Both the position numbers and the translations under genes were made by a program. Shown in pieces: positions 1 through 38,247 of a stretch of DNA of 38,247 nt. Within the stretch, counting starts at the first letter, position 1; each line of letters begins with the position of its first letter. Source of the stretch: a virus. Under the pieces are notes generated by a model. The model worked only from the letters and a program-made list of their open reading frames with translations, had not been told where the DNA came from and ran no database searches. The stretch is taken from positions 1 through 38,247 of the IMG/VR virus record IMGVR_UViG_3300046168_000008. One strand, 5' to 3'.

Positions 1-83
1 ACGCTATATACGCGGACATAAATTACCCCGTGGCTACCCTATGTTTTTTTCTACCGGGAGGGAGTACTTGCAAAAGTTGTTTC

Positions 84-105
84 GTAAGTCGTTGATTACC
101 AACAA
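84..105 (+). repeat. Terminal dyad element, copy A (half-site)
   Basis: GTAAGTCGTTGATTACC begins here and shares its core (RTAAGT followed by cgttgatt) with elements at 151, 481, 581, 37547 and 38082. Upstream at 66-80 lies ACTTGCAAAAGTTGT, which is close to the sequence following copy C (acttacagcaaaagttgt). The function is unknown; it belongs to an iterated family found only near the genome ends. Confidence 0.5.
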
Positions 106-150
106 GGTTCGTGCAATATTGATTATGTCTAATTTACACGAGTAAAGCAG

Positions 151-177
151 ATAAGTAGCTGATTACCAATGACTTAT
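151..177. repeat. Inverted-repeat dyad, copy B, with variable centre
   Basis: Perfect 6-base arms ATAAGT (151-156) and ACTTAT (172-177) enclose 15 bases, AGCTGATTACCAATG. The matching dyad in the right terminal repeat (38082-38108) has the same arms but centre CGTTGATTGTTAGGC. All eight mismatches between the two terminal repeats fall between these arms. Confidence 0.6.
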
Positions 178-370
178 GATGTTTTCGTTATTGCAATTTA
201 GTTGCATTAAGCCATTTATCCAGTAGCTTTCGCAAATCAACAGATCAGCCGTTGCAATTGCGTCAAGGGTTGCTCGTTTCGTATCGTTTCATCTTGATGT
301 GTTGATATGTATTTTTATCGCTTTCAGCCGTCGTTGTTCGCTCCGCTCTCATCGTCATTGCATGACTCAT

Positions 371-480: not shown

Positions 481-508
481 GTAAGTTGTTTATATTGTTA
501 GTACTTAC
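481..508. repeat. Inverted-repeat dyad, copy C
   Basis: Arms GTAAGT (481-486) and ACTTAC (503-508) flank a 16-base centre. It is followed by agcaaaagttgt, a near copy of the sequence at 70-80 in the terminal repeat. It belongs to the same family as the dyads at 151, 581 and 38082. Confidence 0.6.
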
Positions 509-3375: not shown

Positions 3376-3646
3376 ACAAGAGCAGTTACCGAGCAAAGCG
3401 AGTAAGTGCGATGGGAGCAAAGCGACTGCTGTCTGCAAACACTGCGGACTAACACTTCAAGGCATGGAAAACGAAGGCGAGGACATATGCGTTGACTGCT
3501 TAACCGATCTTTGCTTTAAACCCGGCTACTCGATCATCGAAGGAATGATACGACAAGCCACTGACAACCCTATAAAACCAACCGATAAAAACAATGATAC
3601 AACCGAGAAAACTAGAAATAAACCAAATCAAGGACGCAGTAAGTAA
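3362..3646 (+). CDS. Zinc-ribbon-like early protein, 94 aa
   Basis: Two Cys pairs, CKHC and CVDC, about 20 residues apart near residues 25-48, form a zinc-ribbon pattern. The ends are Lys, Thr and Asn-rich and probably unstructured. The ATG at 3362 follows AAGAGGAC and sits 14 bases inside the preceding gene; an ATG further upstream would mostly re-read that gene. Such small ribbons often bind nucleic acid or polymerase, but no specific family is recognised. The 3' end overlaps the DnaA-like gene. Confidence 0.65.
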   Translation: MTTNKQEQLPSKASKCDGSKATAVCKHCGLTLQGMENEGEDICVDCLTDLCFKPGYSIIEGMIRQATDNPIKPTDKNNDTTEKTRNKPNQGRSK

Positions 3647-3881
3647 AGTCTTTGATACCACGCCTGAGTTAATTGATTCATCTACACGCTACCAACCACA
3701 CGCCTTAGCTAGGCAGATTTGTTACTACTACGCCATGACCGGACGGTCTTACGTGTCCGTAGCAAACCTGTTTAACAAGCACCACGGATCGATAATGCAC
3801 GGAGTCAAAAAGATACGAAGCCTTTGCGATGACGACTGGCAGATCAAAGCGTACCTAACCGAGATCGAGAAAGAGCTATGA
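3594..3881 (+). CDS. DnaA domain IV-like DNA-binding protein, 95 aa
   Basis: Residues about 9-75 follow the layout of the C-terminal DNA-binding domain of the replication initiator DnaA: an IKDAV...F opening helix, a HALARQICYYYAM helix (DnaA: ARqiamYL), TGRSYVSVANLF (TG.S...IG..F), then KHHGSIMHGVKKI, close to the DnaA signature [KR].H[ST][ST]V..A..KI. The AAA+ and other domains are absent, so it could bind DnaA boxes but not hydrolyse ATP. It may block or redirect host DnaA, or act at the phage's own end (a DnaA-box match lies at 558-566). It overlaps both neighbours. Confidence 0.7.
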   Translation: MIQPRKLEINQIKDAVSKVFDTTPELIDSSTRYQPHALARQICYYYAMTGRSYVSVANLFNKHHGSIMHGVKKIRSLCDDDWQIKAYLTEIEKEL

Positions 3882-3949
3882 GTATTACAACCGCACTCGT
3901 CATTATTATGCTGTTCCTTATGCTCATCTCCTTTTTATATGAAGACTAA
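3878..3949 (+). CDS. 23-residue hydrophobic membrane peptide
   Basis: ATGA overlap with the DnaA-like gene (ATG 3878) opens a 23-codon frame, MSITTALVIIMLFLMLISF plus LYED. Almost all of it is one transmembrane-length hydrophobic stretch. It ends inside the start of the next gene (ATG 3939). The overlap arrangement and the clean membrane profile argue for a real microprotein; its role is unknown, possibly membrane or toxin-like. Confidence 0.5.
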   Translation: MSITTALVIIMLFLMLISFLYED

Positions 3950-4136
3950 AGAACCGACACTTATGATAGAAGAACTTATGTTTTACATACACCAAAATGA
4001 GATGGGAGGGGATTGTATTGATCCGTCGAATAGATTTTTTCCCTTGTACTTAGAATTACAGAAGCTACTTGACAAGCTTAACAACGAACGCCATGACTTG
4101 TACGTGTCCGTGAAAAATGATGAGGTAAAACTATGA
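3939..4136 (+). CDS. Early hypothetical protein, 65 aa
   Basis: Helical, Leu, Met and Glu-rich protein with no membrane segment or motif. It overlaps the microprotein upstream (11 bases) and the next gene by ATGA at 4133, so translation of the chain is probably coupled. Not recognised. Confidence 0.6.
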   Translation: MKTKEPTLMIEELMFYIHQNEMGGDCIDPSNRFFPLYLELQKLLDKLNNERHDLYVSVKNDEVKL

Positions 4137-7905: not shown

Positions 7906-9353
7906 GTGAACCAGCACCGAGAGAGTTCTTAACTGGCGAACCCAAAGCGATACCAAGACGCAACCTGACTCAGGAAACGTGTCGGAAGTGGGGCTACTGG
8001 GTTGGTCGTTTGAATGGTGAGGATGTACAGATAGCTAACTATAAAACGCGAGACGGGAAACCTGTTGCTCAGAAGATACGATATGCTAACAAGAACTTCA
8101 GTGTTCGTGGTGAGTTGGTTGGTCTGTACGGTCAGCACCTGTGGAAAGAGGGAGGACGTCGTGTTGTTGTAGTCGAAGGAGAGATCGATGCGTTGAGTGC
8201 GTCACAGGCTATGGATAATAGATGGCCAGTAGTCAGCGTACCGAACGGAGCAAGTGCTGCAAAGAAACACGTGGCACAAGCTATTGATTGGTTAGAACGG
8301 TTTGAGAAAGTGGTGTTCTGTTTTGATATGGATGATGTTGGACGCAAGGGGGCAGCTGAATGTGCAGCACTCCTGACACCCGGCAAAGCACACATCGCAG
8401 AGCTACCACTGAAAGACCCGTCTGATATGTTAACAGGTGGCAAGTCGAAAGAGTTAGTCAGTTGTTTATATGAAGCAAGAGAGTATCGACCTGACGGAAT
8501 CGTAAACGGTAAAGACTTGTGGGAGTTAGTAAGTAATACTGACGAACACAAAGCAGTACCGTATCCGTACTATAGTTTAAACGAGTTAACCCACGGCATG
8601 AGACTAGGTGAATTAGTTACGGTATGTGCGGGTAGTGGAATAGGAAAGTCTCTGTTCTGTCGTGAGATAGCTCATCATCTACTAGGTCTTGGCGAGACGG
8701 TAGGTTATATAGCACTGGAGGAATCCGTCAGGCGTACTGCTCTTGGTATCATGGGCATCCATCTGAACAAACCATTACACCTTGAAGAGGAACAACTGGA
8801 CACGGAAGCGTTACGTCCTGCGTTTGAAGAGACAGTGGGTAACGGAATGTTCTACACTTACGATCACTTCGGCAGCATGGACAGTGACAACTTGCTGGGT
8901 AAGATACGATACCTGATAAAAGGATTCGATTGTAAATGGATATTCCTAGATCACCTATCGATTGTTGTCAGTGGTATAGCAGGAGATGACGAACGACGAT
9001 TGATTGATAACACGATGACCAAGCTACGTAGTCTTGTTGAAGAGACCGGGTGTGGCATGGTGTTGGTCAGTCACTTGAAGCGAGTGGATAGTGGTCACGA
9101 AGAAGGAGGACGAGTAAGCCTGCACCATCTACGTGGATCGCAAGCTATAGCACAGCTGTCAGACATGGTCATCGGACTGGAACGAAACCAACAAGCTGAG
9201 ACTATATCTAATGAGACACGTGTTCGTGTGTTAAAGAATAGATTCAGTGGACAGACAGGACATTGTACCACCCTTAACTACGACGGAGACACAGGCAGAT
9301 ACACAGAAGATAAGAACGTGTTCACCGATACAACAACTAACAATCCATTCTAA
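7776..9353 (+). CDS. Primase-helicase (T7 gp4-like), 525 aa
   Basis: Bifunctional replication protein: zinc-binding primase, then a hexameric DnaB-type helicase. Zinc cysteines are Cys10, Cys13, Cys29 and Cys32 (CTECGSS...CFSC). The TOPRIM primase core has VVEGEIDALSA (Glu134, Asp138) and VFCFDMDDVGR. Helicase Walker A is GSGIGKS (Lys291), with FLDHLSIVVSG and VLVSHLKRVDSG later. The protein ends ...TTTNNPF, a terminal Phe like T7 gp4. An internal in-frame ATG at 7902 (residue 43), after GAGGAAAG and fused to the endonuclease stop, could give a short helicase-only form like T7 gp4B. Confidence 0.96.
   Translation: MAFTKTHEPCTECGSSDALSTNDDGSTYCFSCNSYSGGRGKTMSEPAPREFLTGEPKAIPRRNLTQETCRKWGYWVGRLNGEDVQIANYKTRDGKPVAQKIRYANKNFSVRGELVGLYGQHLWKEGGRRVVVVEGEIDALSASQAMDNRWPVVSVPNGASAAKKHVAQAIDWLERFEKVVFCFDMDDVGRKGAAECAALLTPGKAHIAELPLKDPSDMLTGGKSKELVSCLYEAREYRPDGIVNGKDLWELVSNTDEHKAVPYPYYSLNELTHGMRLGELVTVCAGSGIGKSLFCREIAHHLLGLGETVGYIALEESVRRTALGIMGIHLNKPLHLEEEQLDTEALRPAFEETVGNGMFYTYDHFGSMDSDNLLGKIRYLIKGFDCKWIFLDHLSIVVSGIAGDDERRLIDNTMTKLRSLVEETGCGMVLVSHLKRVDSGHEEGGRVSLHHLRGSQAIAQLSDMVIGLERNQQAETISNETRVRVLKNRFSGQTGHCTTLNYDGDTGRYTEDKNVFTDTTTNNPF
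7902..9353 (+). CDS. Possible short helicase form (internal start of primase-helicase)
   Basis: ATG 7902 is in frame with the primase-helicase and sits in an ATGA overlap with the endonuclease I stop, 7 bases after GAGG. The product would lack all four zinc cysteines but keep TOPRIM and helicase, matching the gp4A/gp4B pair of T7. It is predicted from sequence only; a second protein has not been shown. Confidence 0.55.
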   Translation: MSEPAPREFLTGEPKAIPRRNLTQETCRKWGYWVGRLNGEDVQIANYKTRDGKPVAQKIRYANKNFSVRGELVGLYGQHLWKEGGRRVVVVEGEIDALSASQAMDNRWPVVSVPNGASAAKKHVAQAIDWLERFEKVVFCFDMDDVGRKGAAECAALLTPGKAHIAELPLKDPSDMLTGGKSKELVSCLYEAREYRPDGIVNGKDLWELVSNTDEHKAVPYPYYSLNELTHGMRLGELVTVCAGSGIGKSLFCREIAHHLLGLGETVGYIALEESVRRTALGIMGIHLNKPLHLEEEQLDTEALRPAFEETVGNGMFYTYDHFGSMDSDNLLGKIRYLIKGFDCKWIFLDHLSIVVSGIAGDDERRLIDNTMTKLRSLVEETGCGMVLVSHLKRVDSGHEEGGRVSLHHLRGSQAIAQLSDMVIGLERNQQAETISNETRVRVLKNRFSGQTGHCTTLNYDGDTGRYTEDKNVFTDTTTNNPF

Positions 9354-9760
9354 TGAAAATTAGTGAATACTTTGAGCAAGCTAAAGATCATCAATGTAGG
9401 CTTGATCGTTATAGGACAAATAAGGCACGAGATAAACTTAAAGAAGTGCAAGCCAGTAAGTTAAAGCGTATGTCTTTAAAACCTGATATACAAAAACTAA
9501 CACGCGAACAGAAAAAAAGCAGATTCCTATCTTTATATAAACTTGCACATGGTTGTTGTGTGTGTGGTTACAATGAGGATGCTTTAAGTTTAGACTTAGA
9601 TCACGTTAATCCATTAGATAAAAAATATTCTATAGGAGATTTAAGAAAAAAGAGTTGGGATATTTTGTTTAAGGAGATAACCAAGTGCCAAGTTCTTTGT
9701 GCTATTTGTCACAGATTAAAAACCGAGGAAGAAAGATTACTTGCAGAAATACTAGATTAA
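9353..9760 (+). CDS. HNH endonuclease, 135 aa
   Basis: A Lys and Arg-rich N-terminal half (about residues 1-62), then an HNH zinc-finger nuclease: CCVCGYNED (about 69-77), LDLDHVNPLD (about 83-92, catalytic His) and CQVLCAICHRLKT (about 112-124). Free-standing HNH genes between T7-like replication genes are usually homing endonucleases. It starts on the primase stop (TAATG) and looks more A/T-rich than its neighbours, which suggests later insertion. Confidence 0.85.
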   Translation: MKISEYFEQAKDHQCRLDRYRTNKARDKLKEVQASKLKRMSLKPDIQKLTREQKKSRFLSLYKLAHGCCVCGYNEDALSLDLDHVNPLDKKYSIGDLRKKSWDILFKEITKCQVLCAICHRLKTEEERLLAEILD

Positions 9761-34555: not shown

Positions 34556-34813
34556 ATGAAAGATCACGTAGAAGGAGCTAAACTAGCAGACAGTTATACT
34601 GAACTGTGTAAGGGTGCAGTCGGGTACATGAAAGCGATGGAGGAGTACAACCCAGCACTAATGAATACTGTGGGTAAGTGGTTGAAAGATAACAACATAA
34701 CCGTTGACAGCCGTAGTGGTACTCCTATGGATAGTTTAGCTAACGATTTTAAAACCCTACCTTTCAGTGAAGAAGAAACACCAAGAGATACCACCGCCTC
34801 TGCGGGACTTTAG
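34556..34813 (+). CDS. terS: Terminase small subunit (T7 gp18-like), 85 aa
   Basis: Size near T7 gp18 (89 aa), directly before the large subunit. Segments such as LADSYTELCKGAVGYMKAM and NTVGKWLKDNNITV fit the family. It would recognise concatemer DNA and start packaging at the terminal repeat. The 3' end overlaps the large subunit start by 47 bases. Confidence 0.82.
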   Translation: MKDHVEGAKLADSYTELCKGAVGYMKAMEEYNPALMNTVGKWLKDNNITVDSRSGTPMDSLANDFKTLPFSEEETPRDTTASAGL

Positions 34814-36455
34814 AAACTTTCTGTACTTAGTATGGAAACATCTTAACCTACCAGACCCGACAGAATTACAGTACGATATTGCTGACTATATGCAGCACGG
34901 CCCTAAGCGGTCAACCATCATGGCGTTTCGTGGTGTTGGTAAGAGCTGGATTTGTAGTGCGTATGTAGTACATCAGCTGTTGCTAGACCCAACAAAGAAC
35001 GTACTCGTTGTATCCGCTTCTAAGAATCGTGCTGATGATTTCTCTACGTTTACGTTAAAGATCATACACGATATACCCATCCTTAAACAACTGAAACCAA
35101 CAGAGCACCAACGGTTCAGTAAGATCGCTTTTGATGTAGGCCCTGCTCCCGCCTCACACGCCCCCTCCGTTAAGTCCCTTGGTATATCATCCCAGTTAAC
35201 AGGTAGCCGTGCTGATATAATCGTAGCTGACGACGTAGAAGTCCCTAACAACTCCGCTACCCAAGGTATGCGGGATAAACTAGATGAACAAGTAAAAGAG
35301 TTTGAAGCGATCCTTAAACCACTCGATTCGTCCCGTGTGTTATTCCTTGGTACTCCTCAGTGTGAAGATAGTATCTATAACAAACTACGAGAAAGAGGCT
35401 ACAACGCCCGTATATGGCCTTCGGAGTATCCGGATGAGTCAGAAGTAATATCAAACTACGGAGGCGATCTAGCACCCCTTATAGCGGATAATATAGACGA
35501 AACAACAGTAAGTACCACTACAGAACCTCTACGGTTTACTGATATAGACTTAGAAGAACGTAAGATGTCGTACGGTCGTACCGGGTACGCTCTACAGTTC
35601 ATGTTGAATCCTAAGCTATCCGATGCTGATAGATACCCTTTAAAGATTAACGATCTGATCATCATGGACGTAGACGTGGATACAGCTCCGGAGAAAGTCC
35701 TGTGGTCGTCTGATCCAGATCAAGCAGATAGAACACTACCTAACGTGGGTCTCAGTGGGGATCGCTATAAACGTCCAGCTAAGACTGTCGGGGGTAACGT
35801 ACCCTATACAGGCTCTGTACTATCCATTGACCCGTCTGGTCGTGGTAAGGATGAAACAGGGTACGCTGTCGTCAAGATGCTTAACGGTCAACTGTTTGTA
35901 CCCGATGCTGGTGGTATCCGTGGTGGTTATGACGAGGTAACACTAAAACGTCTCGTCTCTATAGCCAAGGATAACAAAGTTAACAAAGTAGTTATAGAGT
36001 CTAACTTTGGTGACGGTATGTTTATGGAACTGATTAAACCGTTGTTTCGTACTACGTACCCAGTAACCATAGAAGAGGTAAGACATAACAAACAAAAAGA
36101 ACTACGTATTGTTGATGTTATGGAACCTGTACTAAACTCTCATCGTCTTATCTTTGATCCCAGTGTTATTAATGACGACTATAAGAGTGCTCTAACCTAT
36201 CCTATAGAACAACAAACTAGGTACATGCTTATGTATCAACTATCACGAATAACACGTGATAAAGGTTCACTGGCTCATGATGACCGTCTTGACGCTTTAT
36301 CAATAGCGATTGGTTATTGGGTGCAGCAGATGGCTGCTGACGTTAACCAAAACATGATTGATAGAAAACAAGAACTGTTAGATCAAGAGTTAGAAACATT
36401 TGTTGACAGCTTCCATAAAAGAGGTAAACGTAGTCGTTCTTTTTTATGGTCATGA
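34767..36455 (+). CDS. terL: Terminase large subunit (T7 gp19-like), 562 aa
   Basis: Packaging motor and nuclease. ATPase: Walker A FRGVGKSW (Lys59), Walker B IIVADDVE (Asp155, Asp156). Nuclease domain starts with LSIDPSGRGKDETGY (Asp355), with later AHDDRLDALSIA. T7 gp19 has 586 aa. GTG start; overlaps the small subunit, a usual coupling. Acts at the terminal repeat boundary. Confidence 0.95.
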   Translation: MKKKHQEIPPPLRDFRNFLYLVWKHLNLPDPTELQYDIADYMQHGPKRSTIMAFRGVGKSWICSAYVVHQLLLDPTKNVLVVSASKNRADDFSTFTLKIIHDIPILKQLKPTEHQRFSKIAFDVGPAPASHAPSVKSLGISSQLTGSRADIIVADDVEVPNNSATQGMRDKLDEQVKEFEAILKPLDSSRVLFLGTPQCEDSIYNKLRERGYNARIWPSEYPDESEVISNYGGDLAPLIADNIDETTVSTTTEPLRFTDIDLEERKMSYGRTGYALQFMLNPKLSDADRYPLKINDLIIMDVDVDTAPEKVLWSSDPDQADRTLPNVGLSGDRYKRPAKTVGGNVPYTGSVLSIDPSGRGKDETGYAVVKMLNGQLFVPDAGGIRGGYDEVTLKRLVSIAKDNKVNKVVIESNFGDGMFMELIKPLFRTTYPVTIEEVRHNKQKELRIVDVMEPVLNSHRLIFDPSVINDDYKSALTYPIEQQTRYMLMYQLSRITRDKGSLAHDDRLDALSIAIGYWVQQMAADVNQNMIDRKQELLDQELETFVDSFHKRGKRSRSFLWS

Positions 36456-37546: not shown

Positions 37547-37573
37547 GTAAGTCGTTGTTATTGAGTACTTTAT
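37547..37573. repeat. Terminal dyad-type element, copy E
   Basis: GTAAGTCGTTGTTATT with ACTTTAT after a 14-base centre, an imperfect member of the family at 84, 151, 481, 581 and 38082. Confidence 0.5.
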
Positions 37574-37931: not shown

Positions 37932-38247
37932 ACGCTATATACGCGGACATAAATTACCCCGTGGCTACCCTATGTTTTTTTCTACCGGGAGGGAGTACTT
38001 GCAAAAGTTGTTTCGTAAGTCGTTGATTACCAACAAGGTTCGTGCAATATTGATTATGTCTAATTTACACGAGTAAAGCAGATAAGTCGTTGATTGTTAG
38101 GCACTTATGATGTTTTCGTTATTGCAATTTAGTTGCATTAAGCCATTTATCCAGTAGCTTTCGCAAATCAACAGATCAGCCGTTGCAATTGCGTCAAGGG
38201 TTGCTCGTTTCGTATCGTTTCATCTTGATGTGTTGATATGTATTTTT
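37932..38247. repeat. Right direct terminal repeat (316 bp)
   Basis: Second copy of the first 316 bases; identical except eight mismatches within 38088-38102. It runs to the window end, so its full extent equals the left copy or more. Confidence 0.9.
38082..38108. repeat. Inverted-repeat dyad, copy F, with variable centre
   Basis: ATAAGT (38082-38087) and ACTTAT (38103-38108), centre CGTTGATTGTTAGGC. Arms equal those of copy B (151-177); the centre differs at 8 of 15 bases. Confidence 0.6.

Follow-up and report, generated by a model that had tools for sequence, protein, structure and literature searches.

The window, that is, the whole stretch of DNA analysed here (38,247 bp), is the complete IMG/VR virus record IMGVR_UViG_3300046168_000008. 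Its gene content is T7-like and includes a single-subunit RNA polymerase (with matches in 2612 phage records), a T7 SSB, endonuclease I, a helicase-primase, a small packaging protein and a large terminase. The single-subunit RNA polymerase with the T7-type replication genes, and likewise the T7-type large and small terminases (PF22530 and PF11123), place it among the T7-like phages with short direct terminal repeats. We also observed an HNH endonuclease gene at 9353-9760, between the helicase-primase and DNA polymerase genes (phrog_3106, E 4.9e-22). The nearest named relatives by large terminase are Ayaqvirus S45C18 (AP013544), with 65% identity, and Roseobacter phage CRP-125 (OR420743), with 60% identity. 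The likeness to T7 (Autographiviridae) extends to a linear genome, direct end repeats of a few hundred bp, terminases of the T7 type, the single-subunit RNA polymerase and the gene order. The repeats, the packaging genes and the two copies of the element under study (dyad B) are located as follows.

1-316, plus strand: left direct terminal repeat, the same as 37932-38247 but for 8 positions
151-177, plus strand: dyad B, left allele, ATAAGT-AGCTGATTACCAATG-ACTTAT
34556-34813, plus strand: T7-type small packaging protein (DNA maturase A / small terminase); PF11123, E 1.1e-8; phrog_891, terminase small subunit
34767-36455, plus strand: T7-type large terminase (DNA maturase B); PF22530, E 1.8e-39; identity of 60-65% to the two named relatives given above
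37932-38247, plus strand: right direct terminal repeat
38082-38108, plus strand: dyad B, right allele, ATAAGT-CGTTGATTGTTAGGC-ACTTAT

The 316-bp repeats are situated at both contig ends, and these ends look like physical genome ends because two other contigs have end points matching those of the window. A left-end contig from another sample (L003, IMG 3300046167) begins at repeat base 2, one base inside the window start, while a right-end contig (L157, IMG 3300030395) runs on for only about 2 bases beyond the homologous right end. The source is an uncultured T7-like marine phage, and we take its 316-bp direct terminal repeats to be true ones. Identical repeats are expected to be merged by the assembler into a contig running from tail through repeat to head (PMC10563150). 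Most relatives, found either by terminase or by the conserved repeat start, had this layout (59/67 distinct contigs with the repeat-start motif in one scan), unlike the window, which starts and stops at the ends of the repeat. A DNA-level search of phage records found no homologue of the terminal region or the repeat.

A sequence-only reading of the window had stated that the two 316-bp copies are identical except for eight mismatches, all lying between ATAAGT and ACTTAT. Gapless alignment of 1-316 with 37932-38247 bears this out. The copies differ only at positions 157, 159, 165, 166, 167, 169, 170 and 171 (right partners within 38088-38102), that is, at 8/316 positions as seen at the assembly level, and the remaining 301 positions outside 157-171 are identical. 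The arms ATAAGT (151-156) and ACTTAT (172-177) flank the variable span in both copies. Inside it, 8/15 bases differ, while the TGATT block and A168 are unaltered. If changes were scattered independently over 316 positions, eight of them would fall within a 15-base span with P ~5e-10; therefore, we consider the mismatches to be one replaced segment.

The expectation, voiced in the same reading, that T7-like repeats should be identical is sound, as repeats of the T7 type arise when packaging duplicates them, and all virions have the same ones (PMC10563150). The T7-type small and large terminases imply such duplication in this phage as well. The window thus departs from T7, whose type of repeats is described as identical, in one 15-base stretch. 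A literature search found no report of unequal T7-like repeats, which is weak evidence.

Both versions of the dyad were found in other samples. All 27 bases of the left copy are the same in L003, whereas outside the dyad the window repeat differs from L003 at 14/298 positions (4.7%). The right copy has a one-base variant, CGTTGATTGTTAAGC, in the right-end contig L004 (IMG 3300049916), from which the window repeat differs outside the dyad at 15/166 positions (9.0%). Since the dyads match while the rest of the repeat has diverged, the dyad alleles look older than the split between the strains. We conclude that the eight differences are two older, pre-existing natural alleles rather than a product of local mutation. 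The occurrence of both alleles in other samples also rules out base-calling or assembly noise as their origin, so that, of the assembly explanations offered earlier, plain error falls and only a mix of two strains is left to be weighed below.

The arms of the dyad taken by themselves are not remarkable: the pattern TAAGT-N11-19-ACTTA was found 3 times against 1.2 expected, and 12 of 100 shuffled sequences reached 3. The dyad is accepted as real because it is conserved in relatives. In dozens of IMG/VR relatives the same frame recurs with differing spacers. The homologous place holds 13 distinct dyad versions, and the columns variable among relatives cover 7/8 of the window differences (P = 0.011-0.021, 27 columns), a result that supports the earlier suggestion of a variable site or population variation. 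Over a set of 28 distinct versions, the invariant or nearly invariant parts were TAAGT (first base T or C), a TG.T core, one A and the final TTA; the consensus, TAAGTCGTTGATNATCAACGACTTA, is near-palindromic. The alleles were gathered with patterns that fix the upstream flank, which biases any comparison of variability between the dyad and that flank. In loci that came from the terminase search (L007, L008, L011, L006/L004), we observed a conserved flank next to a varying dyad interior. One scan of cellular genomes gave no copy of the dyad context, and the stretches examined in Ayaqvirus S45C18 and Roseobacter phage CRP-125 had neither the repeat-start motif nor a clear dyad copy.

Alleles of intermediate form lead from the left version to the right one by small steps. 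With the two parts of the interior separated by a slash, they are AGCTGATT/ACCAATG, AGCTGATT/GTTAATG, AGTTGATT/GTTAATG, AGTTGATT/GTTAAGC, CGTTGATT/GTTAAGC and CGTTGATT/GTTAGGC. The confinement of the difference between the dyad arms is then explained by constraint on the arms and the core and by freedom of the spacers. Judged by these comparisons, the dyad is a previously undescribed palindrome-like site of the form TAAGT-NN-TTGAT-NN(N)-CA-NNN-ACTTA, and each repeat carries one such imperfect palindrome of 25-27 bp, with conserved arms and TTGAT core and with spacer bases drifting among strains.

Dyad B, in the genome-junction region, probably binds a protein. Its symmetric blocks are conserved without covariation, a pattern that suits binding by a protein better than it suits an RNA hairpin. 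Covariation over the 28 natural versions, which would reveal compensatory stem changes, was below or not above that of shuffled controls; predicted folds were no better than those of shuffled sequences (z -0.09 and 0.28); and there was no Rfam match. A structured RNA element is thus rejected. The same data bear on the possibility that the dyad adopts a folded form in replication or packaging and that its interior is rewritten or inverted, leaving unlike versions at the two ends. The complementary arms speak for it, as does T7 concatemer processing, which is reported to go via a hairpin end (title of Chung et al. 1990, as cited in PMC9503643). On the other hand, folding is at shuffle level, covariation is absent, and inverting the left interior does not give the right one (8/15 matches inverted, 7/15 direct), which also disposes of a simple inversion of the dyad interior, the mark of a hairpin or flip-flop terminus. 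All allele steps are simple and in direct orientation. We regard hairpin-driven rewriting as very improbable.

Several other roles for the dyad were considered and rejected. The window codes at 3594-3881 for a 95-aa protein consisting almost only of DnaA domain IV (PF08299, E 6.3e-14), and a perfect DnaA box, TTATTCACA, is present at 558-566, shortly ahead of the first genes. Several close relatives are without the DnaA-like gene. In L100, L120, L145, L156, L158 and L162 the dyad is present and the contig reaches the RNA polymerase gene, with no DnaA-like gene detectable; this comparison of gene content excludes the phage DnaA-like protein as a general partner of the dyad. A genome-wide phage promoter is out as well, since the neighbouring ATTATGTCTAATT motif was found in the two repeats only. 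The GTTAGGC of the right copy fits the integron attC-like core GTTRRRY; we judge this to be coincidence because the left and several other alleles misfit and no integrase was present among the window proteins examined.

The dyad has relatives of its own around the genome junction, at 85, 482, 582 and 37548, in addition to the copies in the right repeat.

77-134 (also 38008-38065), plus strand: module made of element A and the ATTATGTCTAAT motif, in opposite orientation in many relatives
85-109, plus strand: element A (TAAGTCGTTGATTACCAACAAGGTT), a sister element to dyad B, present again at 38016-38040
482-507, plus strand: related dyad TAAGTTGTTTATATTGTTAGTACTTA, on the head side, shortly beyond the repeat; conserved in L003
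582-607, plus strand: related weaker element TAAATCGTTGTTATTCAATGCACTTA
37548-37573, plus strand: weaker element of the same kind, TAAGTCGTTGTTATTGAGTACTTTAT, next to the right repeat on its tail side

Consensus matches of at least 16/24 have a roughly 20-fold higher density in the terminal stretches (1-700 and past 37219) than in the rest of the window, a figure in which the two repeats count twice. The octamer CGTTGATT, with which the interior of the right dyad copy begins, does occur at 90-97 in element A, as had been pointed out in support of gene conversion within the genome from this sister element, and the right copy and element A have TAAGTCGTTGATT in common. However, the left copy shares a longer stretch with element A, TGATTACCAA, and the interior of element A is closer to the left copy (11/15 matches) than to the right (9/15). 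Moreover, a near-identical allele of the right type already exists in L004. The proposed conversion is thus not upheld, and we give it hardly any credence.

We observed that the 77-134 module lies the other way round between conserved flanks in many relatives (L028, L031, L039, L040, L058, L069, L078 and L084), with reverse-strand matches in L028, L031, L039, L058, L069, L078 and L084, from which it follows that short segments of the terminal repeat invert or exchange as units. The non-coding head region (1-700 and the homologous stretches) is a mosaic of dyad-like modules (TTATTGCAAGTTAGTTGCATTAA, TTTACACGAGTAAAGCA, TTCGCAAATCAACAG...TTGCGTCA); from relative to relative, these short modules change order, recur or give way to others. 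With such exchangeable modules next to the repeat, recombination near it appears to be frequent. Directly past the left repeat, at 373-411, there are 10-bp tandem repeats AAACGATCAC; relatives have other short iterated units at this place (TTTCCAAATATGGAA, TGTGTCAC, GAGTCTCA). By eye only, a piece of the L034 repeat region (3727-4130) was seen to look like the 3' portion of a tRNA (GCGGATTTAAAATCCGTTGCACTTAGTG); it may be an attachment site, and a gene for a XerC-type integrase is present in the related Ayaqvirus S45C18.

Taken as a whole, the unequal dyads have the look of natural variants of a recognition-type site, or of two strains merged in assembly, rather than of random error. The reading that we prefer, with a probability of roughly 60%, is that a single record unites two natural alleles that segregate in a recombining population, either as terminal heterozygosity or as an assembly mix, and that the difference is not programmed. 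In T7-type packaging the repeat is duplicated at each concatemer junction, which makes the right end of a genome and the left end of the one that follows copies from the same junction. Under this duplication model the two ends of one genome would come from two different junctions, and in a mixed, recombining population one genome could carry two dyad alleles. Alternatively, an assembler could set the alleles of two strains at opposite ends.

The preferred reading accords with the left allele occurring unchanged in L003 and the right allele one change off in L004 while other repeat positions diverge, with the intermediate alleles and with the coverage of 7/8 differences by variable columns. The local mosaic of modules makes an exchange of short pieces plausible, and the T7-type terminases supply the duplication that the mechanism would use. 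Three observations fit less well. Under a random assignment of alleles, the two independent end contigs nearest to the window would not have to agree with it end by end, but L003 (left) and L004 (right) both agree. Natural strains differ by 5-9% in the repeat, and a mixture of two of them should show other differences, yet all of the other 301/301 positions are identical. Finally, the contig starts and stops at the apparent physical ends, where most relatives run through the repeat.

Of the two versions of the preferred reading, terminal heterozygosity is quite possible, though we put it short of even odds. In Streisinger-type terminal redundancy heterozygotes, described for headful phages such as T4, one virion genome has two alleles in its redundant ends. 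The window is similar in having two alleles in redundant ends, here read from an assembled record, and differs in that the phage has fixed ends and just one short site that is unequal.

The other version, in which each of two coexisting strains has identical repeats and the assembler placed one strain's dyad at each end, is a somewhat doubtful possibility. Dyad alleles do segregate among strains, and assemblers settle such bubbles by one path or by an early contig end (PMC10563150). Since natural strains differ by several per cent in the repeat, a mixture of strains should show further differences, and none is present in 301 bases. Besides, a collapsed repeat normally yields a run-through contig, whereas the window shares apparent physical ends with L003 and L157.

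A different explanation is that this lineage keeps the left and right dyad B different while it homogenises the other repeat sequence, for example as two sites with different roles in cutting the concatemer junction. We consider this unlikely. All five lineage ends fit it, with AGCTGATT on the left (window, L003) and CGTTGATT on the right (window, L004, L157), and CGTTGATT was not found in any contig that runs through the repeat. The three independent lineage contigs all break at or in the repeat, against 59/67 running through it (rough P = 0.0007), as expected if the left and right ends differ there. At the same end, conservation of the dyad between strains is at least that of the flanks. However, there are only five ends, and the end association alone gives P = 0.1; association and breakage were both spotted post hoc, in a lineage defined by the dyad context itself. 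L157 is distant, with 30% difference in the repeat, and L004 stops 4 bases past the dyad, which could be an ordinary break. The T7-type terminase genes predict identical repeats through packaging duplication. End-specific dyads would need either two repeat copies per junction or the rewriting of the dyad in a processing step, and a tandem repeat pair was seen in no contig. The stronger statement, that left-end and right-end versions are kept across strains and mark the ends, with T7-type duplication being not the whole story, is a little less likely still.

If the end-specific explanation were true, it would contradict the notion of T7-type terminal repeats as exact packaging duplicates and would provide a natural marker telling the template repeat from the copy. 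If the difference reflects population variation, a terminal-repeat site of marine T7-like phages changes by allele replacement with its frame kept, and the terminal repeats of metagenomic records can hold strain information.
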